A program made the translations under genes and the position numbers. Positions 6,635-26,675 of a stretch of 38,804 nucleotides of DNA are shown in pieces. This stretch comes from an uncultured Bacilli bacterium. Its GTDB lineage: Bacteria > Bacillota_I > Bacilli_A > RF39 > UBA660. The notes under the pieces were generated by a model. The model worked only from the letters and a program-made list of their open reading frames with translations. It searched no databases and was not told the origin of the DNA. The first letter of the stretch is position 1. Each line of letters begins with the position of its first letter. The DNA lies in NCBI GenBank assembly GCA_944350445.1, contig CALVOW010000012.1:1-38804 (forward strand). The letters run 5' to 3'.

Positions 6635-8418
6635 GTATATTTAAAAGTGAAATTGCTCCTAAGGGATTACATTTTAATCCTAGTGATTTTAATATTAGTG
6701 ATAAGTATGCAACTATTTTGACAGTTGTTTCTTATCCTCGATCAATTCCGGCTGGTTATCTTGCTGATTTAACAAATATTTCGGGTATTAAAGTTGTTAT
6801 TAAACATATACCAGTTCCTTTTTCAACTTTACAAAAGATGATTAATAAACAAATTGCTGATTATAAACAACGTTATCAAGAAGAAAAAGATAGGACTATG
6901 CAAGAGAGAATTCGTCAAGAATTTGAATCTTTGGAATATTTTGTTTCAATGCTTGCTGCTAGTCAATCAATGGTTTTTGATTTTCAAATGCATATTATGG
7001 TAACTGCTAATTCAAGAGAAGAATTAGAGCTTAAAAAAACTAATGTTAAAAACTATTTAGATTCTTTGGAACTTCGTGCGGTGACTCTTCGTTTTGAGCA
7101 AGAAACTTTATTGAAATCAATGTTACCAATTTTTCCTAAGCAAAAAATTGAACAAAGAATTGGAACGCCTATTCCTTCAGTTACTGTAGCGGGAATGTAT
7201 CCGTTTGTCTTTGATTCAATTAAAGATCCTGGTTTATCAAATTTAATTGGTGTTGATTTTTCTGGAGGAGTTATTCTATTTAATCAATTTTTATATAAAT
7301 TTCGCAAAGAATCTAATCGAAATAATGCTAATATGATTGTGCTTGGTGGATCTGGTTCCGGTAAATCAACACTTGCTAAACTTTTACTTCGTGGACATAT
7401 TCGTAATGGCTGTCAAATTGTTGCAATTGACCCTGAAAATGAACTAGAAGATATGACGAGGTTATATGGGGGAGATAGTGTTGACCTTGGTAAAGGTGGA
7501 TCATTTGGTATGATTAATCCCTTAGAAATAGTATTAGATGTTGATGAAGAAGAAATTGCTCAAGGATTAGGACATACAGTATTAACAAGAACCTTGCAAT
7601 TTTTAAAAGCTTTTATGCGTTATTATTATCCAGATATTGAAGACGATGTTCAAACGTTGTTTAGTGAAATTGTTCAAGATACATATCATCGTTTTGATAT
7701 TAATTTTGAAACAAATTTTATGACAAAAACAAGTGCAGATTTTCCAACTTTCAGTGATGTTTATGCAACAATTCGGGGAAGACTTACATCAATGACTGAA
7801 AAAACACATGAAAGAGATATTATGGAGCGATTAGAGCTTAAAGTTCGTCCTTTTGTTCGAGAATTAAGTTATTATTTTAATGGACATACAACAATTCGTC
7901 GTGATAGTAATTATATTGTTTTTAATATTAAAGAATTAATGAATCAAGATACTAATATTAAAAATGCTTTGTTCTTTAATATTTTAAAGTTTGCTTGGAG
8001 TTTATGTCTTGATAGAAATCGAGATACTATTTTAATGGTTGATGAAGCGCATGTTCTATTAGGCGGTAAGAATGTTTTAGGTGCTGACTTTTTAGCCCAA
8101 GTTCAAAGAAGAAGTCGTAAGTATAATACCGGAACAATTATTATTACGCAACAACCTAGTGATTTTTCAGATCCTGATGTTATTGTTCAAGGTAAAGCTA
8201 TCTTTGATAATGCTTCTTATTATATGATTATGCAACTTCGAAAACAAGCGGTTGAAGATTTATCACATTTAGTAGACTTAAATGAAAATGAAATTGAAAA
8301 TATTAAACGTTATTCACAGGGACAAGCATTGTTTGTTTGTGGTTCAAGAAGAATGCAAATTGATGTGGTTGTAACCCAAGAAGAATTAGAATCATTTGGT
8401 TCTGGTGGAGGTTTTTAA
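6631..8418 (+). CDS. virB4: VirB4-like conjugation/secretion ATPase
   Basis: A 595-residue AAA+/RecA-type ATPase. Walker A GGSGSGKST is at about 239-247. Walker B ILMVDEAHVLL has the catalytic acid pair at D471-E472. A 'TIIITQQPSDF' sensor-like segment follows. These are typical of VirB4/TrsE/PrgJ ATPases, which power assembly and substrate movement at the cytoplasmic face of type IV machines. The N-terminal domain is partly supplied by the preceding small gene. The ATG overlaps that gene's stop (ATGA). The Walker motifs are intact, so the enzyme should be active. Confidence 0.93.
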   Translation: MSIFKSEIAPKGLHFNPSDFNISDKYATILTVVSYPRSIPAGYLADLTNISGIKVVIKHIPVPFSTLQKMINKQIADYKQRYQEEKDRTMQERIRQEFESLEYFVSMLAASQSMVFDFQMHIMVTANSREELELKKTNVKNYLDSLELRAVTLRFEQETLLKSMLPIFPKQKIEQRIGTPIPSVTVAGMYPFVFDSIKDPGLSNLIGVDFSGGVILFNQFLYKFRKESNRNNANMIVLGGSGSGKSTLAKLLLRGHIRNGCQIVAIDPENELEDMTRLYGGDSVDLGKGGSFGMINPLEIVLDVDEEEIAQGLGHTVLTRTLQFLKAFMRYYYPDIEDDVQTLFSEIVQDTYHRFDINFETNFMTKTSADFPTFSDVYATIRGRLTSMTEKTHERDIMERLELKVRPFVRELSYYFNGHTTIRRDSNYIVFNIKELMNQDTNIKNALFFNILKFAWSLCLDRNRDTILMVDEAHVLLGGKNVLGADFLAQVQRRSRKYNTGTIIITQQPSDFSDPDVIVQGKAIFDNASYYMIMQLRKQAVEDLSHLVDLNENEIENIKRYSQGQALFVCGSRRMQIDVVVTQEELESFGSGGGF

Positions 8419-8444
8419 AAAAGTAGTAAAGGTAGGTGAGTCGT

Positions 8445-11003
8445 ATGAATAATAATAACTTAAAAAATGATGTTAATAATAATAATCAAAATATTAATCA
8501 AAACAATAATCTAAATAATTCGAGTAGTAATCAAAATATGAATACGGCTCCAAATTTAAATCAACAAAATAATTCTTTAAATAGAAATCAATTAAATCGT
8601 CCTCTTAATAATCAAGCTAATTTTCCTGGTAATAGGCCACATAACAATCCAACAAGAGTTCCTAATAATGATTTAGCAAAACCATCAGCGCCAAGCAATA
8701 ATTTACCTTCTAATAATACCAGTAATAGTTCTAGTAATTTGGCCAATAATAAATCAGTTGTTAAAAAGTCCGGTAATGATTTAGCCAATAAAGCCTTGAA
8801 TAAAATGGGTACCAAAGGTAAACTAGCATCAATGGCTTTGAATAAATTAAAAGGGAAATCTGGAAGCGATGATAATACAGAACCATCATTATTTAAAAGA
8901 AAACGTGGTATGGGACTTGGTGGCGGTTTACTTGGTGGCTTAACTGGTGGAAATCAAGATGAAAATTCGGAATCTAATGATAATGATAGTTCAAGTGAAG
9001 TTCAAGATGATGGTGCTGATGTTGCTGAAACAATTAATAAAGCATCAAGAATTGTCTTACTTTTAATAAAGTTAGCTCCTGTTTTAATTCCAGTTGCCGT
9101 TGCCTTTTTTGTAGTTATAATCCTTGTATCAATACTTACAGATCCAATTGGAGCTTTGCAAATGTTTTTAGGTCTTGAAAATCATAATTCGGATAATACT
9201 AGTTATATATATAATGAAGAAACTGATCCAGAAATGTCGGCTGCCGAAAAAGAATATTATGATAAGATTTTAGAAACTATTAGTGATTTTCAAGAAAAAT
9301 ATGGAGTTACAATTGATAAATATTATTTGCATGGTGCGGTTTCTTATCGATATTTTACGACCTCACTTGATGATTTATTTTCATCTGATTCGGGAGTTAC
9401 CGATTCGGAATTGGAAGATGCAATTGGCAATTTAGATTCATCTTCAACGGAAGATCCAATTGATTATACTGAGGCTACCAAAAAAATTGGCGTAGTTGCG
9501 TCTTTAATGATTCAAAAGAATGCAGATGGTAGTTATTCTACTGATACTGAGCCAGAAGGAATTTTTTATACTAATTTAGTCAATAGTGATTTTTTAAAAA
9601 ACTATTATAAAGATTTTTTGGCAAATGATGAAGAAGAAACAAGAAAAGAATTAGTTGATGATATTTTTTATTATGTTGAATTTGCTAAGGAATTAATGTT
9701 TCCAGATCAACAGTCATCTATTTTATCAGGCGAAATCTTAGTTTATATGCAAAATTGTCTTCCTCAACCATACAATTATATTACTAATGAACGTGGAAAT
9801 AGCGTTTTTGATAATCCAAATGTAAATGAGGGGACAAATTATCCAGAATATTTAAATATGACAGATTATTTAAAAGGTGTAGTTTTAGCAGAGCTTGGAG
9901 CTGATTCAATGACTGAGGCTAACAGAGAAGGTGTCAAAGCTTTTGTTGTAACGGCTACTACGTTTTTACTTGGTAGTTTTGGTGTTGATTTTTATCCAGG
10001 TGTTCAAACAATTGGTTTTCCATCCGGTGATTGTCGTCAATTAACTTGTGATCCAAATTATGGTTGCTCATATGATGTTAAAGAAGGTTATAGTATTACT
10101 TATTCCGGAGTCGATCGAAATGTGCAAACTCCTGGGTGGAAGCAACCACTAACTGATGAACAACAGGCCTATATGGACGGAGTACTTGCGGAAGTATTTG
10201 GAGAAGTTATGGTTAAAGAAGGTCTTACAGCTAATGATGTCACTAGTAGTGATGATTTCACTGCTGCAAGTTATCGTGACAATAAGCAAAATTCTGGCTG
10301 TGGTAATCGTTGTTTAGGTCAAGAAGAAGCCTTAGAAGATTCTCGAAATGGAATGACTTATTTAGAAATTCTTGATAAATATTATGATGACACTACATAC
10401 GATGTTGTTAATATTAAAGAAGGTTTATATCATACATCAAGCGGAAATTATAATGGAACGATTCAATTAAATGAAGATTATCATTATCATCAAGGAGATT
10501 CTCCATGGGGAAGTCAAAGACTTTGTGGCTCAGGACCTATTAGTTCTAATGGCTGTAATATAACTTCGGCTGCTATTGCCATTTCCCTTCTTACTAATCA
10601 AAGAATTACTCCAACTACTTTAAATAATCGGCAAAATGAAATATCAACTTGTCGTTCTTCCTCACGTCCCCAAATGATTATGGATTTTGCAAGACTTTAT
10701 GGTTTAACTCCAACAGAGGTTCGTAAAGGTAATGATGCGGCGGTCGAAGATATGTTAAGTAAGCTTGCAACAGGAAATTATGTTGCCATTGCAAGACTTG
10801 CTGCCAATAGTGGTCGTTATAAAACTAGTAGTGGTCATTATATTGCTATTGTTGGTGTTAAATCCGAAAATGGTCGTGATAAAGTCTTAGTTTGGGATCC
10901 AGGAAGTCGTAGTAGTTCCCGTGATAACTATTGGGCTGATTTAAATGATGATTTATTAAAATATCTTCAACCAGAGTATTCATTTATTTTAATAGGGAGA
11001 TGA
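8445..11003 (+). CDS. SpoIID-like plus C39-like bifunctional wall/peptidase protein of the T4SS (VirB1/PrgK position)
   Basis: An 852-residue protein. Residues 1-110 are Asn/Ser-rich and disordered. A Gly-rich patch follows, and a single membrane helix lies near 205-235, so the rest should be outside. A mid-region (about 475-655) resembles the SpoIID/LytB lytic domain: YLKGVVLAELGA with Glu483 at the usual catalytic position, and NGMTYLEILDKYYD at its end. The last 160 residues look like a C39-type papain fold with a plausible triad Cys704 (SNGCNITSA), His798 (SGHYIAIVG) and Asp818 (VWDPGS). In other Gram-positive systems this slot is held by a lytic transglycosylase plus NlpC/P60 or CHAP protein that opens the wall. 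The start is set by GGTGAG before the ATG; a GTG at 8436 is an alternative. Confidence 0.75.
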   Translation: MNNNNLKNDVNNNNQNINQNNNLNNSSSNQNMNTAPNLNQQNNSLNRNQLNRPLNNQANFPGNRPHNNPTRVPNNDLAKPSAPSNNLPSNNTSNSSSNLANNKSVVKKSGNDLANKALNKMGTKGKLASMALNKLKGKSGSDDNTEPSLFKRKRGMGLGGGLLGGLTGGNQDENSESNDNDSSSEVQDDGADVAETINKASRIVLLLIKLAPVLIPVAVAFFVVIILVSILTDPIGALQMFLGLENHNSDNTSYIYNEETDPEMSAAEKEYYDKILETISDFQEKYGVTIDKYYLHGAVSYRYFTTSLDDLFSSDSGVTDSELEDAIGNLDSSSTEDPIDYTEATKKIGVVASLMIQKNADGSYSTDTEPEGIFYTNLVNSDFLKNYYKDFLANDEEETRKELVDDIFYYVEFAKELMFPDQQSSILSGEILVYMQNCLPQPYNYITNERGNSVFDNPNVNEGTNYPEYLNMTDYLKGVVLAELGADSMTEANREGVKAFVVTATTFLLGSFGVDFYPGVQTIGFPSGDCRQLTCDPNYGCSYDVKEGYSITYSGVDRNVQTPGWKQPLTDEQQAYMDGVLAEVFGEVMVKEGLTANDVTSSDDFTAASYRDNKQNSGCGNRCLGQEEALEDSRNGMTYLEILDKYYDDTTYDVVNIKEGLYHTSSGNYNGTIQLNEDYHYHQGDSPWGSQRLCGSGPISSNGCNITSAAIAISLLTNQRITPTTLNNRQNEISTCRSSSRPQMIMDFARLYGLTPTEVRKGNDAAVEDMLSKLATGNYVAIARLAANSGRYKTSSGHYIAIVGVKSENGRDKVLVWDPGSRSSSRDNYWADLNDDLLKYLQPEYSFILIGR

Positions 11004-11005
11004 AA

Positions 11006-11713
11006 ATGAAAAAAAAATTATTAGTTTTAATAGTTCCATTTTTGTTAACTGGGTGTGCGGCCGTAAACTATGATTTAGAAATTAATTCTGATTTAGAAGT
11101 TGAAGAAATTGTTTCCATTACGGGGACTACGGAATATTTTAATAATTTTTATAAAAACTTACCTATTACAATTGTAAGAGAATTTTATGAAGATGAAGAA
11201 AGAATGAAACCTTTAAAAGATAATAATTATAGTTATGAATTAGTAACCGAAAATGTAAATTATCCAACGCTTGTTGCTAGAAAAAAATATACTTCTTTAA
11301 GTGAATATACTAATAATACGATTTTTAAGGGGCAATCCTTTGAAAATATTGTTACTAGTGTTGATGGTGATTTAGTAACAATTCAAACTGTTAATTTCCT
11401 ACCATATTTAGAAGATGAAGATGATGCGAGATATTCTATTTCTAACGTTGATTTTACAATTAAAGTACCCTTTGTAGTAACTTCTAATAATGCTGATAGT
11501 TATGATCCCAAAACAAATACTTATACCTGGACAATAAATGAGGATACCAAAGAAAAGCAAATAACTTTAACATTTGATAAAACCAGAACTTACGTGTATA
11601 ATTTAGCTATGTATATTTCTATTTTTATATTATGCTTATTGGTTGCTATTTTAATCTTTGTTGGGGTTAAAATGGTAAAGAAAAATAAAGTAAATAATAA
11701 AATTAGAGGATAG
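11006..11713 (+). CDS. LppM-like lipoprotein with C-terminal membrane anchor
   Basis: A 235-residue exported protein. A short basic start and hydrophobic stretch end in the lipobox LTGC, so the mature protein should be lipid-modified at that Cys. The extracellular part is beta-rich (YDLEINSDLEVEEIVSITG), resembling LppM/DUF3153-type lipoproteins. A second hydrophobic helix lies near the C terminus, followed by a basic tail. The ATG at 11006 is chosen because GGGAG sits at a normal distance; the ATG at 11000 is too close. It overlaps the ribosome site of the previous gene's end and lies between the wall hydrolase and VirD4, so it is probably an accessory secretion-channel protein. That role is inference. 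Confidence 0.68.
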   Translation: MKKKLLVLIVPFLLTGCAAVNYDLEINSDLEVEEIVSITGTTEYFNNFYKNLPITIVREFYEDEERMKPLKDNNYSYELVTENVNYPTLVARKKYTSLSEYTNNTIFKGQSFENIVTSVDGDLVTIQTVNFLPYLEDEDDARYSISNVDFTIKVPFVVTSNNADSYDPKTNTYTWTINEDTKEKQITLTFDKTRTYVYNLAMYISIFILCLLVAILIFVGVKMVKKNKVNNKIRG

Positions 11714-11722
11714 GAGAGAGAG

Positions 11723-14062
11723 ATGAAATTAAAATTACGTTTTGATTCCGATGATATGAAGAAGTTTTTAATAGTATGCTTAGTACTTCTTTATGTAATT
11801 GCAATTGCAATTGCTAATTTATCTAGTGTCACATCAACTGGGGAATTTACAGGTCTTAATCCTTTACCTGCTTTTTCTAAAGATTTAATTGTCTCAACCA
11901 TTGTTTTTTATATTGTTTCTCTAGCTGCTCTTTTAATTAGTTGTAAAAGTTATTTCTTTGAATTTGATAAGGGAATAGGTTTTACAACTGAGAAAAAAAG
12001 TACAGATGGTTATAGTAAATGGTGCGATGAAAAAGAAATGAAAAAGCAATTAAAACTGGTTTATCCCACGGATCAAAAAGCTCCATATGCTGGTATTGCT
12101 TTAATTAATAATGGAAAAAAAATTTATGTTGATGATAGTGAGTATCATAACTTAGTAATTGGATCAACGGGTAGTGGAAAAACAACAGCTATCATCTATC
12201 CCATGATAGAATTATTATCAAAACACGGAGAATCAATGATTATAACTGATCCTAAGGGCGAGTTATATGAAAAGAAAAGTAATATGTTAAGAGCTAAAGG
12301 TTATAATATTATCCTTTTGAATTTCCGTGATCCTGGTCGAGGAAATGCTTGGAATCCTTTAACACTTCCTTATAAATTGTGGCAAAATGGTAATCAAGAT
12401 AAAGCTATTGAATTATTAGAAGATTTAGCTGCTAATATCTTATATGATGAAGGTAATAAAAATGCTGATCCCTTTTGGGAAAAAACTAGTGCTGATTATT
12501 TTTCGGGAATTACATTGGGCTTATTTTCTGATGCTAAAGAAGATGAAATAAATTTAAATAGTATTAGCTTAATGACAACTGTAGGCGAAGAAAAAATTGG
12601 AGGAAGTACTTATGTAAAAGAATATTTCAATATGAAAGATCCTAATAGTCCAGAGTATGTAAGTGCTTCAAGTACTATTCTTGCTCCAAGTGATACAAAA
12701 ATGAGTATTTTAGCAGTTTTCAAACAAAAAATTAAATTATTTGCATCACGGGCTAATTTGTCGGAAATGTTATCTTATAGTGATTTTAATATTGAAGATA
12801 TTGGGAGAAAAAAGACCGCTTTATTTATAGTTATTCAAGATGAGAAAAAAACCTATCATTCTTTAGTAACAATTTTAATTAAACAAATTTATGAAACTTT
12901 AATTGATGTGGCTCAAAGTTGTGGTGGATCTTTACCAATTCGAACTAATTTCTTATTAGATGAGTTTGCAAATATGCCACCTTTAAAAGATGTAACAACG
13001 ATGATAACAGCAGCGCGTAGTCGTTTAATGCGTTTTACGATGATAATTCAAAATTTTGCCCAGTTAAATGAAGTTTATGGAGAGCAAAATGCCGAAACTA
13101 TTAAAGGAAACTGTGGTAATATGGTTTATTTAATTTCAACTGAGTTAAGAGCTTTAGAAGAAATTAGTAAAATGTGTGGAGAAATTAAAGTAAAAACAGG
13201 AAAAGATGATAAAGAAAAAGAAGAAACAAGACCATTAATTACGATTAGTGATTTACAAAAATTAAAGATGAATGAAGTAATTATTAGACGTCTTCGTATG
13301 GCTCCTTTTAAAACAAAATTAACTCCTGATTATAAAATGAATTGGGGAGTCGAATATAAAAAAGCCGATATTACAGCTATTAAGCCTCGCCCTAGAAGAG
13401 AAGTTAAAGTTTTTGATGTTCGTGATTTTGTCAAAGAAAAGAAAAAACAAGATAATCCTAATCCATTTGCTAGTATGGGCGGTGGTTTTCCAGGCGGTTT
13501 TAATCCTTTTGCATCAGCTAACAATAATCCTTTTATGAATCAACCCCCAGCAATGCCTGCACTTTTTGATACTAATTCTAATTCAACAAGTGATGCAAAA
13601 ATTGATGTTGATCGAATTTTGAAAAATTTAGATGCCAAAATAGCCGAAATAGAAGCTGAGGAAAAACGTCTAGCTGATGAAGAAAAGATGACAAAGCAAA
13701 TATCTGATGAAGTTGAAAAAGAAAAAAGTCAAATTGAACTTCCAAATAATAAAGAAATTTCAGAGATTGAAACCCAACCAATTGCTTCAACTATTTCCAC
13801 CAATAGTTTAGATTCTCATGAAGAATTGTCTTTTAAAGATATTGTTGATTCACTTGATCAAGATGAAGATAAATTTGAAAATCCAAATTCTAATTTTGAA
13901 GAAGAGAATACAAGTCCGGAAAATATAGATGAATTAATTAATAAAATTAAAGGTTTAGAAGCTATTGAAGAAAATATTAAACCAAATATGGATTTAAAAG
14001 AAGAGAATAAATATAAAGAAGTAAGTGATGACGAATTCTTTGATGATTTCTTTGATGAATAA
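11723..14062 (+). CDS. virD4: VirD4/TraG-type coupling protein ATPase
   Basis: A 779-residue membrane ATPase. Two N-terminal membrane helices lie near 12-35 and 55-78. Walker A GSTGSGKTT is at 147-155, followed by the family segment DPKGELYEKK. Walker B LLDEFANMPP has D413-E414. These are hallmarks of type IV coupling proteins, which deliver DNA-protein or protein substrates to the channel. After about residue 560 there is a Pro/Gly/Asn-rich linker and then a long acidic tail ending in DDEFFDDFFDE. Such acidic tails often mediate substrate docking; that is inference. AGGAG lies before the ATG. It ends the secretion operon. Confidence 0.93.
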   Translation: MKLKLRFDSDDMKKFLIVCLVLLYVIAIAIANLSSVTSTGEFTGLNPLPAFSKDLIVSTIVFYIVSLAALLISCKSYFFEFDKGIGFTTEKKSTDGYSKWCDEKEMKKQLKLVYPTDQKAPYAGIALINNGKKIYVDDSEYHNLVIGSTGSGKTTAIIYPMIELLSKHGESMIITDPKGELYEKKSNMLRAKGYNIILLNFRDPGRGNAWNPLTLPYKLWQNGNQDKAIELLEDLAANILYDEGNKNADPFWEKTSADYFSGITLGLFSDAKEDEINLNSISLMTTVGEEKIGGSTYVKEYFNMKDPNSPEYVSASSTILAPSDTKMSILAVFKQKIKLFASRANLSEMLSYSDFNIEDIGRKKTALFIVIQDEKKTYHSLVTILIKQIYETLIDVAQSCGGSLPIRTNFLLDEFANMPPLKDVTTMITAARSRLMRFTMIIQNFAQLNEVYGEQNAETIKGNCGNMVYLISTELRALEEISKMCGEIKVKTGKDDKEKEETRPLITISDLQKLKMNEVIIRRLRMAPFKTKLTPDYKMNWGVEYKKADITAIKPRPRREVKVFDVRDFVKEKKKQDNPNPFASMGGGFPGGFNPFASANNNPFMNQPPAMPALFDTNSNSTSDAKIDVDRILKNLDAKIAEIEAEEKRLADEEKMTKQISDEVEKEKSQIELPNNKEISEIETQPIASTISTNSLDSHEELSFKDIVDSLDQDEDKFENPNSNFEEENTSPENIDELINKIKGLEAIEENIKPNMDLKEENKYKEVSDDEFFDDFFDE

Positions 14063-15546: not shown

Positions 15547-16662
15547 ATGCTAAAAAAACTTGATAAATGTTTAGTTTTTTGTTCTGCTATTTTATTAGTT
15601 ATTGGACTAGTTATGATTTTTTCAGCTAGTAATGTTACTAGTTATATGACATATGCTAAAAGTCCTTATAACTTTTTTATTAGACAGTTTATCTTTTTGA
15701 TTATTAGTTTAATCATTTCTTTTTTTATTTTAAAAATTAATACAAAAGTTTATCATTATTTTAGTTTTATTTTAATGCTTGTTATAATGGGTTTATTGAT
15801 TGTCGTCTTAATTTATGGAAAAATGACTAATCAAGCTCGTAGTTGGTTTAATTTGTTTGGTATTGCTACGATTCAACCAAGTGAATTTGCAAAAGTTATT
15901 ACTATTGTTTGGTTTAGTTGTTTTTATAGTATTAAGGAAAATTGTGTTAAATTACAAAGAGTTATTATTCCTTTAATCTTTGCACTTGGAAATGCTTTAT
16001 TGATTGCTATTCAGCCTGATCTTGGAACGGCTGTTATATATACTGGAATTGTTTTTTTGATGTTTTTAGTTTTACCAATTAGTAAAAAAATTAAGAGAAA
16101 TAGTTTTCTTGGTATTTTAGGAATTATTGTTGTTGCCTTATTATTGCTTTTAAATAATGGTGTAAAAATTCTTTTTGAAAGACAATTAGAGCGTTTTAAT
16201 TTTTTGAATCCTTGTGAGAGGATTTATTCAACTGGTAATCAAGTTTGTAATGGTTATATTGCAATTAATAATGGTGGTTTATTTGGAAAAGGTCTTGGAA
16301 ATAGTACGCAAAAATATTTATATTTGCCAGAGGCATATACTGACTTTATTTTTGCAATTATTGTTGAAGAATTAGGACTTTTAGTATCTGTCTTAATATT
16401 ATTGCTTTTATTTTTGGTGTTATGGAGAATTTTTATAATTGCCAAAAGGAGTAAAACAACTCGGGGTTCTTTACTTTGTTATGGTATATTTTGGTATATT
16501 CTTTTACATATTGTAATTAATTTAGGTGGTCTTTTAGGTCTTATGCCATTAACTGGTGTACCTCTTCCATTTTTGTCTTATGGAGGCTCTTATTTAATGT
16601 GTTTAATTGCAAGTATTGCTATTGTTTTAAGAGTTGATATTGAAAGTAAAAATAGTGATTAA
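15547..16662 (+). CDS. ftsW: SEDS peptidoglycan glycosyltransferase, FtsW/SpoVE type
   Basis: A 371-residue integral membrane protein with about ten hydrophobic segments. Family motifs are clear: GLVMIFSASN at the first helix, a 'WFNLFGIATIQPSEFAKV' segment, GGLFGKGLGNSTQKYLYLPE, 'DFIFAIIVEELG', and LPFLSYGGS near the end. SEDS proteins polymerise lipid II into glycan strands together with a class B PBP. The length (about 370) and motifs fit FtsW or the sporulation paralogue SpoVE better than RodA; sequence alone does not separate the two. It follows the beta-sandwich protein by 12 bp and is closed by a strong terminator. Confidence 0.9.
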   Translation: MLKKLDKCLVFCSAILLVIGLVMIFSASNVTSYMTYAKSPYNFFIRQFIFLIISLIISFFILKINTKVYHYFSFILMLVIMGLLIVVLIYGKMTNQARSWFNLFGIATIQPSEFAKVITIVWFSCFYSIKENCVKLQRVIIPLIFALGNALLIAIQPDLGTAVIYTGIVFLMFLVLPISKKIKRNSFLGILGIIVVALLLLLNNGVKILFERQLERFNFLNPCERIYSTGNQVCNGYIAINNGGLFGKGLGNSTQKYLYLPEAYTDFIFAIIVEELGLLVSVLILLLLFLVLWRIFIIAKRSKTTRGSLLCYGIFWYILLHIVINLGGLLGLMPLTGVPLPFLSYGGSYLMCLIASIAIVLRVDIESKNSD

Positions 16663-16671
16663 AAATTAAAT

Positions 16672-16728
16672 GATAAAATTTATATCTACTTGGGATGGTG
16701 GATGATGAAATAAATTTTATCTTTTTTT
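16672..16728 (+). terminator. Strong intrinsic terminator after the SEDS gene
   Basis: A perfect 12-bp stem, GATAAAATTTAT (16672-16683) with ATAAATTTTATC (16710-16721), followed by seven T. The 26-base loop is unusually long and rich in GGATGGTGGATG. It isolates the amidase gene from upstream transcription. Confidence 0.85.
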
Positions 16729-16749
16729 ATATCTTTTTAGTTGTTAGTA

Positions 16750-16776
16750 ACGATTAGTTTTAGGTAACATAAAATA
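16750..16776 (+). promoter_or_regulatory. Sigma-K/E-like sporulation promoter candidate
   Basis: AC at 16750-16751, 16 bp, then CATAAAATA at 16768-16776. This matches the mother-cell sigma-K pattern AC-N16/17-CATAnnnTA of spore formers. No sigma-A -35/-10 pair with acceptable spacing is visible between the terminator and the ATG at 16792. In Bacillus, cell-wall amidases of this type are often made in the mother cell. The short motif could occur by chance in AT-rich DNA. Confidence 0.5.
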
Positions 16777-16791
16777 TGTTAGGGTGAATTT

Positions 16792-17103
16792 ATGAATGGA
16801 TATCGAATAGTTGTGGATGCTGGACATGGTGGATCGGATCCCGGTGCAGTGTCTGGAAATTTAAAAGAAAAAGATTTTACTTTGCAAGCAGCTAATTATA
16901 TGTATGATAGATTTAAAGAGTTAGGAGTACCAGTTGCTATTACCAGAGATGATGATAGGACTTTAACGAGACAAGAGCGATTATCGACAATGACTGATAC
17001 CTTTGGAAATGATTCTAAGGTAATAATATTGTCTAATCACATAAATGCAGGAGGTGGCGAAGGTCAAAGTGTAACAAATAAATGTATAACAATTAAAGCC
17101 TAA
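16792..17103 (+). CDS. N-acetylmuramoyl-L-alanine amidase, 5' part of an interrupted gene
   Basis: The first 87 or so codons encode the start of an Amidase_3 domain: VVDAGHGGSDPG with zinc ligand His12, KEKDF with Glu26, and SNHINAGGGEG with His83. The reading frame then enters inserted DNA after Gly-Gly and stops 17 codons after the crossover, adding QSVTNKCITIKA, which is not amidase sequence. The catalytic Glu and the LysM repeats are 13 kb away at 30046-31331. As it stands the 103-residue product cannot be active. Rejoined at the shared core, the gene encodes an uninterrupted 515-residue amidase. AGGGTGA precedes the ATG. It cleaves the bond between MurNAc and L-Ala of peptidoglycan when intact. 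Confidence 0.88.
   Translation: MNGYRIVVDAGHGGSDPGAVSGNLKEKDFTLQAANYMYDRFKELGVPVAITRDDDRTLTRQERLSTMTDTFGNDSKVIILSNHINAGGGEGQSVTNKCITIKA
17051..17074 (+). other. attL: left junction of the intervening element
   Basis: The core GAGGTGGCGAAGGT (17051-17064) is shared, with one mismatch, with 30043-30056. It overlaps the inverted-repeat arm GGTCAAAGTGTAA (17062-17074), whose exact reverse complement lies at 30025-30037. The symmetry centre puts the exchange at the GG of 17053-17054. Sequence left of this is amidase; right of it is element. Confidence 0.85.
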
Positions 17104-18280: not shown

Positions 18281-19501
18281 GTGGCAGATAATGATAGAAT
18301 GGTAAAAGCTAAAAAAAGTAAAAAAAATGAATTTTATACTAGGTATGAAGATATTGAAAAAGAAATGAATGCCTATGTTGAATACAATCCTGATGTTTTT
18401 AGAGATAAGATAATACTTTTGCCATGCGATGATCCAGAGTGGTCTAATTTTACAAAATATTTTGCAGCAAATTTTAAAAGATTTGGATTAAAAAAACTTA
18501 TAAGTACAAGTTATGCATTTGATAGTAAGGTTGATAAAGGTTCTTATCAATTATCATTGTTTGAATCAGAGTCTCCTAAATTTGATATAAAAAAGACAAA
18601 AAGTCATGGCAAAATATTTATTTTAGATGATGATATTAATGGTTCTGGAAAAATCGATATAGATGACTTAAAATGGGATTATCTTGAAGGTGATGGTGAC
18701 TTTAGATCTGATGAGGTTAGAAAATTAAGAGATGAATGTGATATTGTAATAACTAACCCACCATTTAGTTTATTTTTAGAATTTTTTGAATGGATTATGG
18801 AAGCGAAAAAGCAATTTATTATAATTGGAGACATGAATGCAGTTTCGGATTTGCATGTGTTTCCACATATAATGTCTAATGAAATATGGATGGGAGAAGC
18901 TTTTAATGTCACTATGACTTTCGCTATGGATGAATCGTATGAAACTTCAATTAAAGAGCGTGATAAACTTGGGAGAAAATTAGGAAAGGTTCCAGCGATT
19001 TGTTGGTACACTAATATTGAATTAAGAAAAAGACATGAATATATTAACTTAATGACTATGGCTGATAATATCAAGTATAATAAAGCCTTTATAAAAAAAT
19101 GTATAGAAAAATATGGAAAAGTTGAATATAAAAAATATGATAACTATGATGCTATAGAAGTTCCTGTTGTTAGTGCAATACCATCAGATTATAAAGAAAT
19201 TATGGGAGTCCCAATGAGTTTTTTAGGAAATTATAATCCAGAGCAATTTACTATTGTTGGAACGGTTAGCGCTAGTCAAAATGAAGGTTCATTGAACAGT
19301 GGTAAAAAATATAATAAATATATTGGTTACAAGCAGGATGGAACTCCAAATGGAAGAACTGGATCAACTTTTGGTAAATGTCCTGTCATAATAATGGATG
19401 ACGGAAAGCATCCTTATTATGAAAAGGACGGTATTAGAGTTCAGGCAACTTATCCAAGAATTTTTATTATAAATAAAGGGGAGGAAAAAAATGAAAGCTG
19501 A
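18281..19501 (+). CDS. EcoRI-type adenine-specific DNA methyltransferase
   Basis: A 406-residue protein matching the EcoRI methylase family (PF13651). It has the N-terminal '[15 protein letters not shown]', the '[17 protein letters not shown]' AdoMet-site region and the catalytic NPPF at 159-162. The family methylates adenine N6. The recognition site of this member cannot be told from sequence. The start is a GTG with GGAAG 7-8 bases upstream; a later ATG at 18299 is possible. Its end overlaps the DUF262-HNH gene by 11 bases, so the two form one translational unit, and it is the natural protector of self DNA against that nuclease. Confidence 0.9.
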
Positions 19502-20660
19502 TTTAAAGACAGATTGGACTGTTCGAGATATTTGTGAAGGTTTCATGTATGATCGTGCATTAGACAAAGGATTATACGGATTAAATGGGAAATTGACTAT
19601 TCAACCAGAATATCAACGTAACTATATATATGATTCTAATGGTAAAGATGTTAAGGTTATAGAATCTTTATTAAAAGGATATCCATTAGGACTAATCTAC
19701 TTTGTAAAAACTGGAGAAGATAAGTATGAGGTTTTAGACGGTCAACAGAGAATTACTAGTATTGGCAGATTTGTTAAAACTACATATCCTTTTAGTGTTC
19801 CTGATATTGATGGTAATCCTAGATATTTTGACAGTTTGCATGAAGAAGAACAAGAAAAAATTTTAAATACTGAATTAACGATTTATGTTTGCGAAGGAAC
19901 TGCTCAGGAAATAGATGAATGGTTTAAAATAATAAATATAGCTGGAGTAGAATTAAACGAACAAGAAAGACTTAATGCTTCATATTATGGACCATTTACG
20001 ACACTGGCTAGAAAAGAATATTCAAACACTAACAATGCAAATATGGAAAAATGGAGAACATACATCAAAGGTGATCCAAAGCGTCAAGAAATATTACATT
20101 GTGCATTGGACTGGGTTTCGAATCACGATATTGCTGGATACATGAGTGAGCACAGAAATGATAATAATATTACGGATTTAAAAAATCATTTTGATTCTGT
20201 AATAGATTGGATTAATTCACTTTTTGATTATACTGATAAAGAAGTAAAAGGATTGCCTTGGGGAGATTATTACAGAAAATATCATAATAATGCATATGAT
20301 AGAGTTAAATTAAATAATGATGTATTAAAGCTAATGGGAGATCCATACGTTCATGATAAAAAGAATATATTTGAATATTTATTATCTGGATCTAATAGGA
20401 CAGAATTACTTGATGTGCGTTATTTTGATGATAATGTAAAGAGAACAAAATATACTCAGCAGACTGAACAAGCTAAAATTAAAGGAATTTCAAATTGTCC
20501 ATATTGTGCAATTGGTAATGATAATAATAAAGCTAAAATTTGGAAATTTGAAGAGATGGATGCAGATCATGTTACTGCTTGGAGTAAAGGTGGATCTACA
20601 GATATAGATAATTGTCAAATGTTATGTCAAACACATAATAGAGCAAAAGGAAATAAATAA
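19491..20660 (+). CDS. DUF262 (GmrS-like) NTPase fused to HNH nuclease
   Basis: A 389-residue two-part protein. The N-terminal DUF262 domain has '[12 protein letters not shown]' and the hallmark DGQQR at 83-87, which in GmrSD/BrxU-type proteins drives nucleotide hydrolysis. The C-terminal 55 residues form an HNH nuclease with CPYC, DADH (His360), and '[15 protein letters not shown]'. The common GmrSD C-terminal partner is DUF1524; here a classical zinc HNH takes its place. GGGGAGG precedes the ATG. Overlap with the methyltransferase suggests a restriction-modification pair in which this is the cutter. Whether it cuts unmodified or modified DNA is unknown. Confidence 0.88.
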
Positions 20661-20661
20661 T

Positions 20662-20717
20662 AAAAGAGCGCTTGTACAGGCTTACATTTGTTTAAGTTTT
20701 TGTATTGCGCTTTTTTT
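20662..20717 (+). terminator. Intrinsic terminator after the methyltransferase/HNH pair
   Basis: A 10-bp stem starting AAAAGAGCGC (20662-20671) and closing at GCGCTTTTTT (20707-20716), with one wobble pair and a 35-base loop, then T. It directly precedes gajA. Confidence 0.7.
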
Positions 20718-20734
20718 AGTGGTAGGTGGTAAAA

Positions 20735-22459
20735 GTGATTATTAAAAAAATTGTTATAAAAAATTTTAGAAATTTGGAAAATGTTGTTATAGAAAATGAA
20801 AGCAATATGAAATATGTAATTGGCAATAATGGCGTTGGTAAAAGTAATTTATTGGAAGCTATTAATTATTTTTTTAATAAATCTAGTTTTAGCTTAGAAG
20901 ATTTTTATAATGAAGATAAATCAATTGAAATTCAAATGAGTTTATTATTAAATGAGTTTGAATTAGGTTATTTTGATGATTTTTTTGATTTAGATAATGA
21001 AAATATCATTAATATTAAAGCTGTTCAAGAAACTCCTATCGATAGAATAGAATATTATCATATTGATACCGGATCGGCCATTAGTTATCAAAAAATAAGG
21101 AATTTACCTTGTGTATATTATAATTCAGTAAACGCGCCTGAAGAACTAACCTTTATGAAAACTAAAACAAGTGGACAATTTTTAAATTCATTAATAGAAA
21201 ATTATATAAATATCAATGAAGTAAAAGTTGATGGCTTGTTAAATACAGGAGAAATTAACAATATATCAAATCATTTAAATGAAATATTAAATTTAATTAG
21301 CTTTGTACAAAATAATGATTTATCTGTTGTAATAGAAAAAAATATTGTAGATTTATTACCTAGATTAATGGAATTAAAAAATAAGGATAATATGTCTATA
21401 AATAGGATGGGAAGTGGCGTGAGATATAGTTCATATATATATTTTGAATTATTGAATAAAATTATGCAAACTGTAGAAAAAAAGAAAGATAGCATAATCG
21501 AAAATGATAATGGAAAAAAATATATTAGCATGTTTATATTTTTAGACGAACCGGAAATTCATTTGCATCCTTATATGCAACGAAGTGTTATTAGTGATAT
21601 AAAGAATATAATTAATAATAAAGATACATTATTTTTATCATTATTAAAAAAAATTTTTAATATAGATGGTATTTTTGGACAGTTAATTGTGGTAACTCAT
21701 TCTCCAAATATTATATCGAATAATTTTAGAGAAATTATTCGATTAGATTATGATAATATAAAAAAAGTAAAAGCATATAGTGGATTTAATTGTGAAATTA
21801 CTGATAAAGAGGAAAAACAATTTTTATTACATAACTTTAAAATAAAAGAGGCTTTTTTTGCTAAGACTTGTATTGTTGTAGAGGGACAGACCGAAAGAAT
21901 TGTTTTACCTATATTTGCTGAAAAAATGGGTTTGAGTTTAGATGGATTAAATATAGGAATAATTGAAGCTGATGGAGCTGATTCTATACCAATAGTAACA
22001 ACGTTACTCAATCACTTTGGTATAAAAAATATTTGTATTATCGATAAAGATAAATATAAAGAAGATTATTCATTGATTTATCCAAATATAAAACATACAA
22101 AGTATACTTTTTTTGAAGAAGATTTTATTAGAAAAATTCTTTTTAATAAGAGAACTCATATTTTATATCAAATAGCTCGTGATTGTGGCGACAAAATGGA
22201 TTTATTTATACAAAAAGGAGCTATTGAAAAAGTAAATAAAAGAATAGAAATTAACGATGTGATTTATGATAATTTTAAATTATGTGATACGTTAAAATCT
22301 TCTAACTATTTTCAAAAACTTTTAGTTTTAGTAACATGGCTATATAATAAAAAATCAACTTTAGAAAGTACTATTTTGGCAAAGAATTGTGCTGTAGAAG
22401 ATATTCCTGATATTTATAAAGAAATAATTATTAAGGCGGTAATTTATGCAAAAAAATGA
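20735..22459 (+). CDS. gajA: Gabija protein A: OLD-family ATPase with TOPRIM nuclease
   Basis: A 574-residue OLD-family endonuclease. The ABC-type ATPase part has Walker A GNNGVGKS at 30-37, a signature-like 'RMGSGVRYSSYIYFELL', and Walker B FIFLDEPEIHLHP with D271-E272, followed by 'VVTHSPNII'. The TOPRIM part has VVEGQTERIVLP with Glu383, 'IIEADGADSIP' and 'CIIDKDKY' with D437/D439. Length and order match GajA of the Gabija anti-phage system, a nucleotide-sensing DNA nickase. The partner helicase gene overlaps by 14 bases. The GTG at 20735 is chosen because AGGTGG lies 5 bases before it; the in-frame GTG at 20726 overlaps that site. Other OLD classes are possible, but the adjacent UvrD gene favours Gabija. 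Confidence 0.88.
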   Translation: MIIKKIVIKNFRNLENVVIENESNMKYVIGNNGVGKSNLLEAINYFFNKSSFSLEDFYNEDKSIEIQMSLLLNEFELGYFDDFFDLDNENIINIKAVQETPIDRIEYYHIDTGSAISYQKIRNLPCVYYNSVNAPEELTFMKTKTSGQFLNSLIENYININEVKVDGLLNTGEINNISNHLNEILNLISFVQNNDLSVVIEKNIVDLLPRLMELKNKDNMSINRMGSGVRYSSYIYFELLNKIMQTVEKKKDSIIENDNGKKYISMFIFLDEPEIHLHPYMQRSVISDIKNIINNKDTLFLSLLKKIFNIDGIFGQLIVVTHSPNIISNNFREIIRLDYDNIKKVKAYSGFNCEITDKEEKQFLLHNFKIKEAFFAKTCIVVEGQTERIVLPIFAEKMGLSLDGLNIGIIEADGADSIPIVTTLLNHFGIKNICIIDKDKYKEDYSLIYPNIKHTKYTFFEEDFIRKILFNKRTHILYQIARDCGDKMDLFIQKGAIEKVNKRIEINDVIYDNFKLCDTLKSSNYFQKLLVLVTWLYNKKSTLESTILAKNCAVEDIPDIYKEIIIKAVIYAKK

Positions 22460-24209
22460 TCAAATGCTTAATAAAATATCAAAGATACATAGTGAAGATG
22501 AAAATCAGTTATTAATTATAAAATCTGAAAATCGCAGAATGTTAATTGAAGCACCGGCTGGTAGTGGAAAAACAAAAACTTTAATTAGTACAATTGCTTA
22601 TAATATTGCTTCTGGATTAATTCCAAATACAAAAAAAATTCTTGCACTAACATTCAGTGTAAATGCTGCATATAAAATAAAAAAAGAAGTTATCGAACAA
22701 TTGCCTATATTATTTGATGAAGATAAGAGTTTTGAGCAATTAGTTTCAAAAAATATTTGGGTTTCAAATTACCATGGCTTTTGCAGAAAAATATTAGGAT
22801 TATATGGTTTTAAGTTATCAAGTATATTAAATTCGTTGAATGAATTTTCAGTTATAGATGACAAAAAAATTCCTACAGAAATAACATTAACAGATGAGGA
22901 AAAAAACACAATAAATAATATAATAAATTCTATTTCAACCGCTAATATAGGACAAATGAACGACAATATTAGTATATATAATAAAATAATAATAGAAAAA
23001 ATAATATCAAATAAATATATCACGTATAACTCAATAATTACTTTGGTAATTGAATTGTTTAATCGATATCCAATTTTGTTAAAACAATATCAAAATTTAT
23101 TTGAAATAATAATAGTTGATGAATATCAAGATACAAATATTTTAGGATATGTATTATTAAATAGATTAATTAATGATAAAACAAGATTATTGTTTTTGGG
23201 TGATCCTTTACAACGTATATATGGATTTATTGGTGCCATTCCTAATATTATGAATATTACAAAAGAAGAATTTAAAATGAAAAAAATTGTATTAGAACAT
23301 AATTATAGATTTAAAGATAATTATGAACTTTTAAAATTAGATAAAGTTGTGAGATTAAATTCTATGGGTGTGAGAGATATACAAGAAATATCAAATCCTA
23401 AAATAATATGTAGTAGAGATTATGAAACAGAATATAATTGGATTATTACGAAAGTTTCAGAAAATATCACTTTAAATGTAAATACCACAATTTTAGTAAA
23501 AAGTTTAAATAATAATTACAATACAGAATATTTACTAAAAAAATTAACCGATAATAATGTGCCTTTCTTTTATGCTCTTTTTACAGATGAAAGTGAAGAA
23601 TATATTTCATTTCATGAGTATGCATATAAAGAAATTTTAAGAGTAATTAAAGATAAAAAAGTTGTAAATAAAAAAATTTTAGAGAAGTTTTATAATAATA
23701 TATTTTTGCATTTCCAAGAAAACAATAATCCAATATATAAATCTTTACTAATTTTACTCAGAAAATTTATTGATGGAGTATATGAAATATATTCCAAATA
23801 TAGAATGGAAGATTTGATTAACTTTATTTTTGAAGTATTAGAAAACAAAGGTCTTAAGCAATATATGAATAAAATTGACGAAAAATTGATTGTTGCAACA
23901 ATTCATGCATATAAAGGATTGGAAGCGGATTGTGTTATTGTTGTTGATTTAGAGTCATATAATTTCCCTGGTTATTATACATGCTCGAAGTGCAATCAAA
24001 CAAATAATAATTGTACAGTATGTGGTTCTTCACAAAAGCAATTTTTGGAAGAATTGAATGTTTTCTATGTAGCTATAACCAGGGCCAAAAAAGATTTATA
24101 TTTAACATATAGTCAAAATCAACTGCAAAAGTATGGTGTAAAGCCTTGTAAAAAAAGTTGTTTACTAAACTTAAATGGGATTAAAAATAATAATTTAATA
24201 GAAATATAA
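22446..24209 (+). CDS. gajB: Gabija protein B: UvrD/PcrA-like helicase
   Basis: A 587-residue superfamily 1 helicase. Motif I APAGSGKT is at 36-43, motif II IIVDEYQDTN has D225-E226, 'LLFLGDPLQRIYGFIGA' is motif III, 'VATIHAYKGLEADCVIVV' is motif V, and 'FYVAITRAKKDLYLTY' is motif VI. In Gabija this protein binds GajA and is thought to respond to DNA ends. It is longer than the roughly 490-residue GajB first described. Between motifs V and VI is a four-Cys knuckle, C513-x2-C516-x6-C523-x2-C526, likely a zinc site. AAGGCGG precedes the ATG, which lies within the end of gajA. Confidence 0.87.
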   Translation: MQKNDQMLNKISKIHSEDENQLLIIKSENRRMLIEAPAGSGKTKTLISTIAYNIASGLIPNTKKILALTFSVNAAYKIKKEVIEQLPILFDEDKSFEQLVSKNIWVSNYHGFCRKILGLYGFKLSSILNSLNEFSVIDDKKIPTEITLTDEEKNTINNIINSISTANIGQMNDNISIYNKIIIEKIISNKYITYNSIITLVIELFNRYPILLKQYQNLFEIIIVDEYQDTNILGYVLLNRLINDKTRLLFLGDPLQRIYGFIGAIPNIMNITKEEFKMKKIVLEHNYRFKDNYELLKLDKVVRLNSMGVRDIQEISNPKIICSRDYETEYNWIITKVSENITLNVNTTILVKSLNNNYNTEYLLKKLTDNNVPFFYALFTDESEEYISFHEYAYKEILRVIKDKKVVNKKILEKFYNNIFLHFQENNNPIYKSLLILLRKFIDGVYEIYSKYRMEDLINFIFEVLENKGLKQYMNKIDEKLIVATIHAYKGLEADCVIVVDLESYNFPGYYTCSKCNQTNNNCTVCGSSQKQFLEELNVFYVAITRAKKDLYLTYSQNQLQKYGVKPCKKSCLLNLNGIKNNNLIEI

Positions 24210-24219
24210 AGTTTTATGG

Positions 24220-24243
24220 GAGTACGTTTAGGTACTCTTTTTT
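24220..24243 (+). terminator. Intrinsic terminator after gajB
   Basis: GAGTAC (24220-24225) pairs with GTACTC (24232-24237), with a 6-base loop followed by six T. It closes the Gabija operon. A separate perfect palindrome TAGGTACCTA lies at 24288-24297, upstream of the HTH gene. Confidence 0.8.
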
Positions 24244-24366
24244 CATGTTTCGTATAATTCAACTTTGTTTTTACTTGTTGTAAGATATAGGTACCTAGGG
24301 AAAATAGTATGTAAAAGTGCACTTTTATAAAGATATATTTTATTTATAATTCTATATAAGGTTACT

Positions 24367-24849
24367 ATGGAAGGATATATAAAACCAATTATACCATTAT
24401 CAGTTCTTTGCGATAATAGAATATCATCTTTAGAAAAGTTATTATTAATACACATAATTTCTTTGTGTAATAATAAAGGATATTGTTGGGCAACTAATAG
24501 CTATTTTATGAAGGTTCATGGCTATAGCAAACAAACAATATCTAAATGTATTAACGATCTTGCCTCTTTAGGTTATATAAAGTTGAAATATGAAAAAGAA
24601 AGTACTAATAATTCAAAACGTACAATTACGCTTGACCAAGTATTAAAAAAAGAAATACAAGAGATTAAAGATAATTTGAATACCAGTGTTCAATCTAAGT
24701 TTAATCATTATAATAAAAATAAGATAAATGAAATATATTATAAAGATAAATTAGGTAATGAATATTGGAATGGAAAGTTAATTGAAAAACAAGAAGCAAC
24801 TAAACAAGAAATTGAAGAATTAGAAAATTTACTTAAAGAATTTAACTAA
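24367..24849 (+). CDS. Winged-helix HTH protein (HTH_36 / replication-initiator-like)
   Basis: A 160-residue protein. Residues 5-80 form a winged helix: 'LPLSVLCDNRISSLEKLLLIHIISL'-type helices, then 'GYCWATNSYFMKVHGYSKQTIS' as recognition helix and 'LASLGYIKLKYEK' as wing. This is the HTH_36 pattern seen at the N terminus of plasmid and phage replication proteins. The rest is charged and helical with 'EELENLLKEFN' at the end. It could be an element regulator, for example of the recombinase 240 bp downstream, or a reduced replication protein. A palindrome TAGGTACCTA (24288-24297) lies 70 bp upstream and could be its operator. The ribosome site AAGG is weak. Confidence 0.65.
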   Translation: MEGYIKPIIPLSVLCDNRISSLEKLLLIHIISLCNNKGYCWATNSYFMKVHGYSKQTISKCINDLASLGYIKLKYEKESTNNSKRTITLDQVLKKEIQEIKDNLNTSVQSKFNHYNKNKINEIYYKDKLGNEYWNGKLIEKQEATKQEIEELENLLKEFN

Positions 24850-24875
24850 ATAATATAAGGAGGTTTTAAAATAAT

Positions 24876-24911
24876 ATGCGAGAATTTATCATAAGATTTT
24901 TTAAGAGGTGA
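24876..24911 (+). CDS. Possible 11-codon leader peptide
   Basis: A short frame (MREFIIRFFKR) behind a perfect AAGGAGG, 12 bases upstream. It ends 3 bases before the next small start, within whose ribosome site (GAGGTGAG) its stop lies. It could couple translation or act as a leader. It is only supported by the strong ribosome site. Confidence 0.3.
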   Translation: MREFIIRFFKR

Positions 24912-24914
24912 GAT

Positions 24915-25010
24915 ATGTTTAATATTAAAGAAACCTTTAAAAAAGATGATAATTCTACTATTAATGATTTGATAATTGGATATATAATGTGCGTTTTAGT
25001 AAAATCGTAG
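24915..25010 (+). CDS. Possible 31-residue small protein before the recombinase
   Basis: MFNIKETFKKDDNSTINDL followed by a hydrophobic segment 'IIGYIMCVLV' and KS. GAGGTGAG sits at a good distance from the ATG. It ends 76 bp before the recombinase start. No family is recognised. It might be a regulator of excision or a small membrane peptide. Confidence 0.4.
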   Translation: MFNIKETFKKDDNSTINDLIIGYIMCVLVKS

Positions 25011-25013
25011 ATT

Positions 25014-25095
25014 TGTTATACGTCTATATTAATGATAGACTGAATCTAGGCTTTAAATGTTATACAAAAGAAAGGAGAAAAAGCCGTGTATAACA
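25014..25095 (+). promoter_or_regulatory. Recombinase control region with three TGTTATAC repeats
   Basis: TGTTATAC occurs at 25014-25021 and 25058-25065, and inverted as GTATAACA at 25088-25095. The last two can form a stem whose 22-base loop holds the AGGAG (25073-25077) and most of the GTG start of the recombinase. A second hairpin, GTCTAT / ATAGAC, is at 25022-25040. Repressor binding or ribosome-site masking are both plausible. A further GTATAACA lies at the left end of the element (17084-17091). Confidence 0.5.
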
Positions 25096-26669
25096 CTGTG
25101 TTACAACACCCTAGTTATTATAGAGTAGGATTATATATAAGATTATCTGAATCAGATTCTGATAAAAGTTATGAATCAGAAAGTGAAAGTATTATTAATC
25201 AAAGAAATTTATTAATGAGCTTTGTAAAACAAAATGAATTTACTTTTGTTGATGAATATATTGATGATGGATTTACCGGTACTAATTTTGATAGACCTGG
25301 ATTTAAAAGATTAATTGATGATATAGAAAAAGGTAGAATTAATTGTGTTATAACTAAAGATTTATCTAGATTAGGTAGAAATTATGTAACATGTGGATAT
25401 TATGTAGATGAATACTTTCTTTTAAAGAAAGTTAGATATATCGCTGTATTAGATCAGGTTGATACTTTTTTAAATAATGTTGGTAATGAAATGATACCTT
25501 TTAAATCAGTATTTAATGATATGACTAGTAGAGATAATTCTAAAAAAATTCGTTCTATTTTAAGAAATAAAAAAGAAATTGGAAAATTTATTGGAAGCGA
25601 ACCTAGTTTTGGATATATGAGAGATCCAGAAGATAAAGGACATTTATTACCTAATTCAGAAACTGCATATATTGTGAAAAAAATATTTGAAATGGCAAAT
25701 GATGGAACAAGTGTAAGTGATATAGCAAGTTATCTTAATGATTGTAAATATCCTACACCAAGCCTATATAAGAAAAAAGAAGGTTCTAAACAAAAGGTTA
25801 ATCCGATATGGACTATTTCATCAGTAAAAAAAATATTAAAAAATCAGATGTATACTGGAGATATGGTCCAAAATGTTCAAACTAAATTATCATACAAATC
25901 ACCTAAAAAAGTAACGCTTAATAAAGAAGCATGGATAATTGTACCTAATACTCATGAACCTTTAGTTAGTAAAGAAGTGTTTTTTAAAGTACAAAATAAT
26001 GTTAAAAGAAAACCTAAGACACAATCTAATAGAGAAAAAAGATTATTTGAAAATCTTATTTACTGCAAAGAATGTGGAAACACTTTAACAGTTACTTACC
26101 GAAAGAAACAAGATTATTGGACTGTTAATTGTAATAGGTATTCGAGAGATCCAAGAAGACATTTATGTTATCCACATTTTATACCATATGATAAGTTAGA
26201 AGAAGCATTACTAGATACAATAAAAAATACTTGTAAAAAATATTTAGATAAGTTAGATGTTAAGTCATTAGCAAAATTAGTTAATGATAAAAATAATAAA
26301 AAAGAAAGTAATGGGGAGGAAATTAATTATCTAAATAAAAGGATTAAAGAATGTAATTCTAAAATTGATATGTTATATGATGATAAATTTAAAGGTAATA
26401 TTTCAGAAGATACCTATAAAAGATTATCTAGAGAAACAGAAATATTATTAAATCAATCTAAAGCAAGATTGGAAGAATTACAAAGTATAGATAAAAAGAA
26501 AATTGATTCTGCTAAAGAAATTAAAAAATATGAAGAAAAAATTAAAGAATTAATTAATCTTGATAAACTAAGTAGAGAATTATTACAATCCATCATTGAT
26601 AAAATAATTATAGATAAAGATAGAAATATTGAAATCTTTTATAAATTCAGTTTGTTAAATAATATTTGA
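25086..26669 (+). CDS. Large serine recombinase (TnpX/TndX type)
   Basis: A 527-residue site-specific recombinase. The N-terminal resolvase domain has GLYIRLSESD with the nucleophile Ser21, 'YIDDGFTGTNFDRPGFKRL' and the Arg-rich 'KDLSRLGRNY'. A Recombinase domain follows ('GYMRDPEDKGHLLPNSETA', 'WTISSVKKILKNQMYTGD'). A zinc ribbon lies at about 325-360 (CKECGNTL ... C). A coiled coil covers about 395-490. This is the layout of TnpX/TndX, which excise and insert circular intermediates using a short core. It is the only recombinase in the window, so it is the likely agent of insertion at 17053 and 30045. The start is GTG with AGGAG, inside a possible hairpin. Confidence 0.95.
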   Translation: MYNTVLQHPSYYRVGLYIRLSESDSDKSYESESESIINQRNLLMSFVKQNEFTFVDEYIDDGFTGTNFDRPGFKRLIDDIEKGRINCVITKDLSRLGRNYVTCGYYVDEYFLLKKVRYIAVLDQVDTFLNNVGNEMIPFKSVFNDMTSRDNSKKIRSILRNKKEIGKFIGSEPSFGYMRDPEDKGHLLPNSETAYIVKKIFEMANDGTSVSDIASYLNDCKYPTPSLYKKKEGSKQKVNPIWTISSVKKILKNQMYTGDMVQNVQTKLSYKSPKKVTLNKEAWIIVPNTHEPLVSKEVFFKVQNNVKRKPKTQSNREKRLFENLIYCKECGNTLTVTYRKKQDYWTVNCNRYSRDPRRHLCYPHFIPYDKLEEALLDTIKNTCKKYLDKLDVKSLAKLVNDKNNKKESNGEEINYLNKRIKECNSKIDMLYDDKFKGNISEDTYKRLSRETEILLNQSKARLEELQSIDKKKIDSAKEIKKYEEKIKELINLDKLSRELLQSIIDKIIIDKDRNIEIFYKFSLLNNI

Positions 26670-26675
26670 TTCATA

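Follow-up and report, generated by a model that had tools for sequence, protein, structure and literature searches.

How can a bacterium use an amidase gene whose two parts lie almost 13 kb apart? This question is raised by the window, the whole 38,804-nucleotide (38.8-kb) stretch of DNA analysed here, in which a LysM amidase gene is divided into an N part and a C part separated by 12,992 bp. In the reading that we hold with good confidence, mobile DNA of the skin/SP-beta type, with defence genes as cargo, interrupts the NHINAGGG codons of a sporulation amidase that has a sigma-K promoter, and this DNA would be excised in the mother cell.

Promoter and parts of the split amidase gene

The amidase gene and its upstream region contain the following features.

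16672–16728 (+), terminator-like hairpin (16672–16721) with T7, 3′ of an ftsW-like gene
16750–16776 (+), sigma-K-type promoter: −35 AC (16750–16751), N16 and −10 CATAAAATA (16768–16776), with a predicted start near A16781
16781–16787 (+), Shine-Dalgarno sequence (SD) AGGGTGA, fused with the promoter
16792–17064 (+), Amidase_3 N part, codons 1–91, with the catalytic-motif segments DAGHGG, EKD and NHINA
30057–31331 (+), amidase C part, codon 92 onwards, with the catalytic Glu region IEYGF and, after it, six LysM domains

The frame of the N part opens at the ATG codon at 16792, continues into the inserted DNA and stops at 17103. No signal peptide is visible in the N part. Against the CwlD family (TIGR02883), the N part by itself scores 52 bits, where the family cut-off of 221 is set for a whole protein, and the LysM tail differs. 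A CwlC-type architecture is not observed: Amidase_3 is present, but the tail consists of the six LysM domains and not of SPOR-type repeats, which CwlC carries.

A sigma-K pattern with AC-N16 spacing had been proposed in a first-pass annotation of this DNA (16750–16791), and the motif is confirmed at 16750–16776. AC-N15..17-CATANNNTA has a single match on the plus strand of the window, which is the amidase site, and two matches on the minus strand. The promoter ends 15 nt 5′ of the start codon, and the predicted 5′ leader is only ~11 nt long and the SD forms its extreme end, which counts against the main reading. A sigma-70-type (sigma-A) promoter was sought in 16500–16900 and none was found, in agreement with the annotation. 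The additional claim that a strong terminator isolates the gene stands in part. The hairpin is real (−15 kcal/mol; z = −3.0 versus shuffles), but its stem is A+T-rich, and it is therefore absent from the G+C-based consensus scan.

As the first-pass annotation had suggested, the upstream region was compared among relatives, using 69 amidase loci from the host's family and dinucleotide shuffles as a control. The promoter is kept. CATANNNTA occurs within 40 nt of the amidase start in 52 of the 69 regions (shuffles: mean 1.8, maximum 6), and 44 of the 69 additionally contain AC at a spacing of 15–17 (shuffle mean 0.17), which is exactly 16 in 40 of those 44 regions. The strict CATANNNTA is missing from the remaining 17. 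In most loci, the −10 element starts 24–26 nt 5′ of the amidase start codon, so that promoter, expected start and SD are fused.

The sigma class of the promoter was assigned using the spoIVA promoters of the host's family as a yardstick for the sigma-E type. spoIVA is a sigma-E gene in Bacillus and Clostridium. The −10 elements of the two classes share CATA and the T at position 8, and this overlap is what would speak for sigma-E rather than sigma-K dependence of the amidase promoter. The two classes separate at the adjoining positions. Amidase promoters of the family read CATAnnnTA in 52 of 56 cases, with A at position 9, and have a C at −17 in 92%, whereas spoIVA promoters read CATAnnnTT in 31 of 34, with T at position 9, and have no C at −17 (0%). 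A sigma-E-dependent amidase is thus very improbable. For sigma-K, the published consensus is KCACM/GCATANNNTA, and for sigma-E it is TYATATTT/KCATANANTN (PMC3416734). The amidase promoter has the −35 KCACM, the −10 GCATANNNTA and the ~16-nt spacing used to define sigma-K regulon members. Because it differs from the spoIVA promoters and fits the published sigma-K consensus, the amidase promoter is, by motif, of the sigma-K type rather than the sigma-E type.

A host lacking sigE, sigK and other sporulation genes would, according to the first-pass annotation, have spoken against this assignment. Host sporulation genes were sampled by family search, and SigE, SpoIIGA, SigK and SpoIVA are all encoded. 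The sigE gene adjoins spoIIGA, and SigE is the best family of its product, yet the score lies 18 bits under the family cut-off. With 307 bits, the host SigK exceeds the cut-off of NF004471 (252), and SpoIVA likewise exceeds that of its own family. RF39 bacteria have been predicted to form spores (PMC10868615). Several of the relatives come from rabbit or rumen samples.

The amidase would be a late enzyme, and its most probable task is to lyse the mother cell or release the spore, a role suggested by its predicted late mother-cell expression, the lack of a visible signal peptide and its amidase family; it could alternatively serve the cortex or coat. The late sporulation hydrolase proposed earlier is supported by the sigma-K-type promoter and the host's sporulation genes, and its lysis role is kept as a prediction.

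The inserted element and its recombination module

The element that separates the two amidase parts is organised as follows.

17051–17064 (+), attL core GAGGTGGCGAAGGT
17062–17074 (+), left arm of the element-end inverted repeat, GGTCAAAGTGTAA
17065–30042 (no strand), element body, 12,992 bp in all, with the exact crossover within the 14-bp core
18281–24209 (+), defence cargo: type II methyltransferase, restriction enzyme, GajA and GajB (Gabija)
24217–26802 (+), mobile recombination module: HTH_36 protein, small ORF and recombinase
24890–24898 (+), sigma-E-type −10 CATAAGATT, 5′ of the small ORF
24915–25010 (+), small ORF of 31 aa, candidate recombination directionality factor from its position and conservation
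25086–26669 (+), large serine recombinase of 527 aa (Resolvase, Recombinase, Zn_ribbon_recom)
28067–29002 (+), Fic-family protein (SoFic-like), cargo
30025–30037 (+), right arm of the element-end inverted repeat, TTACACTTTGACC
30043–30056 (+), attR core GAGGTGGTGAAGGT

Both ends of the element share the core GAGGTGGYGAAGGT and form a perfect 13-bp inverted repeat. The Gabija proteins are matched at 1.2e-186 (GajA) and 4.2e-196 (GajB), and none of the element ORFs examined was recognised as a phage structural gene. Between the recombinase and the next gene (26690–27060), several short palindromic stretches such as CTTATGCACACAATGTGCATAAG are observed; no repeat pair was reported there at the settings used, and an Rfam search of the window returned no match.

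A small ORF of 30–50 aa lies directly 5′ of the recombinase in nearly all elements and is, by its position, a candidate directionality factor. Directly before the recombinase start, a sigma-K or sigma-E motif is missing in nearly all elements; the motif precedes the small ORF instead. CATAnnnTT plus an SD is found before the small ORF in 28 of 40 distinct recombinase regions from spoIVA-bearing genomes (shuffle mean 0.55), and in 0 of 5 recombinase upstream regions from spoIVA-negative genomes. The latter count is not free of exceptions, because one locus (L202) of a spoIVA-negative genome (G066), left out as a near-duplicate, encodes a recombinase nearly identical to that of the window behind the same upstream motif. 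Among the 28 recombinase-operon promoters having a CATA motif, 26 read CATAnnnTT, and a C at −17 is absent. As a class, judged by position 9 and the −35, they differ from the amidase promoters (Fisher 9e-19) and not from the spoIVA promoters (0.47). The motif thus places the recombinase operon under a putative sigma-E-type promoter. Such control is not universal, since the second recombinase of the window's genome, which adjoins a spoVD-like gene, has no CATAnnnT motif upstream.

The element is flanked by further genes of the window. An operon at 3583–14062, beside the split amidase and outside the element, encodes VirB4-like, VirD4/TraG-like and NlpC/P60-like proteins and resembles, by eye, a relative of type IV secretion systems. 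A collagen-like protein with GPTGPTG repeats (BclA-like; 31446–32333, −) is encoded 3′ of the amidase and is a possible spore-surface protein. A sigma-E-type promoter-like site, CATATTATT with GAGGAGG, lies at 1010 (−) before the ORF at 90–983 (−).

Splitting across the family and movement of the elements

The amidase is split at the same codon (the parts end or begin at ~88–96) in 47 of 117 family genomes and present as an intact-only gene in 32 of 117. Both states occur in the host genus, with an intact amidase in six genomes and a split one in several. Split amidases are found in 46 of 98 spoIVA-bearing genomes versus 1 of 19 without spoIVA, the single exception being G066. Fifteen elements of 3.2–17.2 kb are assembled through both junctions, and each encodes one full-length large serine recombinase of 508–560 aa. 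A short core in the GGNGG codons is common to both ends of these elements, and the adjoining arms vary between elements. Removal of the element rejoins the amidase in frame in 15 of 15 cases, giving NHINAGG-GEGAE or near variants; the stop flagged on rejoining at two loci (L051 and L089) belongs to a second element that lies upstream.

Every genome is a draft assembled from a metagenome and several amidase halves lie at contig ends, so that halves from different strains or metagenome misjoins might mimic a split gene. The break nevertheless always falls at the same codons, the 15 elements cross both junctions within assembled sequence, and the control gene ftsZ is intact in 101 of 104 genomes and broken in ~3. 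The ftsZ control rules out assembly noise as the cause of the splits, and an assembly or binning artefact in general is extremely improbable.

The recombination module moves between hosts, as judged by its DNA. The window recombinase is 97% identical to that of a genome from a different genus (G041), and DNA 24217–26802 is 96% identical to the module of that genome with the same left att arm, despite different cargo and flanks and amidases that have diverged to about 53% identity. A vertically inherited, domesticated element was also considered and is ruled out by the varying attP arms and by the 96% module identity across genera with ~53% identical amidases.

This mobility also raises the question of whether the elements are ordinary mobile DNA that uses a codon motif as attB in a dispensable gene, with untimed excision and decaying split copies. 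The many intact relatives, the coexistence of both states in the host genus, the horizontal transfer of the modules and the absence of an evident benefit of the element to the spore all accord with that possibility. It is nonetheless unlikely, given that both amidase parts keep open frames, that most sporulating hosts, but none of the five controls, have a sporulation-type promoter at the recombinase operon, and that amidase splits track spoIVA. For pairs in which both copies are split, dN/dS is ~0.01–0.12, which points to purifying selection on both amidase parts, although selection while split is not fully proven. One genome (G122, locus L090) contains an intact amidase and an extra N part 7 kb upstream on the same strand with a degraded promoter, probably a relic of an earlier insertion.

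Other genes are split as well. In four genomes, the amidase is split twice, with a second element at DAGH-GG (codon ~11), and in two of these (G083 and G042) the first exon with its sigma-K-type promoter was recovered far upstream. The loci and genomes are as follows.

Doubly split amidase loci: L170 (rc 9884), L171 (7649), L168 and L169
Doubly split amidase genomes: G083, G042, G127 and G129

At least seven genera (G002, G021, G046, G052, G089, G093 and G111; L172–L185) have a spoIVA gene interrupted at codon 121 (TPW-YDE), with its own arms, GTGATACC/GGTATCAC, and its own serine recombinases adjoining where assembled; some halves lie at contig ends. The window's genome holds only two such recombinases, and the other one adjoins the C part of a spoVD-like gene. 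This second element splits a PASTA penicillin-binding protein gene across two contigs (L190:9412-11707 and L198; G000:C13 and C1), and SpoVD is the best family for both parts. The N part is preceded by CATATATTT before its SD, a sigma-E-type motif. The cargo of this element includes an apparent type I restriction system. Recombinases of the same group also adjoin the C part of a gene for a P-type cation ATPase (L234 and L238; G068 and G052), and this gene is perhaps split too. The first-pass annotation had argued that a gene needed only in a terminal cell tolerates an intervening element, and this argument gains support because the splits track spoIVA and other mother-cell genes (spoIVA, spoVD-like) are also split.

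A model for mother-cell excision and its relation to known elements

In the proposed mechanism, sigma-E in the mother cell would drive transcription of the small ORF and the large serine recombinase from the CATAnnnTT promoter of the element. The recombinase would join attL to attR and restore the amidase in frame, and sigma-K would then transcribe the whole gene, whose product would act late. The forespore would retain the element, and the amidase would probably be repaired in the doomed mother cell only.

A handful of gene-intervening elements of sporulation genes are known from Bacillus and Clostridium. The element described here shares the features of the skin type, namely a target gene of mother-cell type by its promoter motif, an element-borne recombinase, a frame-restoring core and a sigma-E-type motif. 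The skin elements of sigK (skinBs of B. subtilis and skinCd of C. difficile; PMC5025042) likewise have a mother-cell target gene, a large serine recombinase and an expected in-frame restoration. In skinCd, expression of the recombinase CD1231 is constitutive, and sigma-E and SpoIIID together control the small factor CD1234 (PMC5025042); the candidate factor here would be sigma-E controlled by motif. The target differs, and here the small ORF and the recombinase lie together behind one sigma-E-type promoter, in contrast to constitutive CD1231. Horizontal mobility and defence cargo further set the present elements apart from skin.

SP-beta in spsM (PMC4191935, PMC6957869) resembles these elements in being mobile, in its mother-cell target and in its serine integrase with a small factor, SprB, whose gene has a sigma-E/K promoter (PMC6957869). 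The differences lie in the target, here a LysM amidase that is interrupted in ~40% of the family, and in the phage structural genes, of which none was recognised among the ORFs examined here. The gin element in gerE of B. cereus (PMC5595907) is similarly non-phage, carries restriction-modification genes and pairs a serine recombinase with a small factor (GirC, GirX), but it has three recombinases instead of one and a different target. The vfbin element of spoVFB and the yin element of yabG (PMC10747680) also intervene in sporulation genes, in other hosts and targets. CwlC, a sigma-K-dependent Bacillus amidase of mother-cell lysis (PMC517825, PMC10565116), shares the MurNAc-LAA amidase domain and late mother-cell expression, the latter predicted here; the C-terminal LysM repeats differ. 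A literature search, with coverage mostly outside subscription papers, found no interrupted amidase as a target.

In ~40% of a large, uncultured family of gut bacteria, elements that cross genera interrupt a late amidase, always at the one codon. The two promoter classes would impose a natural order, with sigma-E for excision and sigma-K for gene use. We give about even weight to the broader idea that the mother-cell genes of the family (amidase, spoIVA and spoVD-like) form a shared safe harbour for horizontally moving defence islands with sporulation-timed excision. If so, a single gene can accommodate two elements, and the set of removable, intron-like insertions would be particular to each lineage of spore formers. 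The preference of mobile elements for mother-cell genes becomes testable by counts over more than 100 genera, and the family offers many new pairs of recombinase and small factor with defined att sites. Gene callers would describe an amidase, spoIVA or spoVD gene as truncated although the mother cell may have a working copy.
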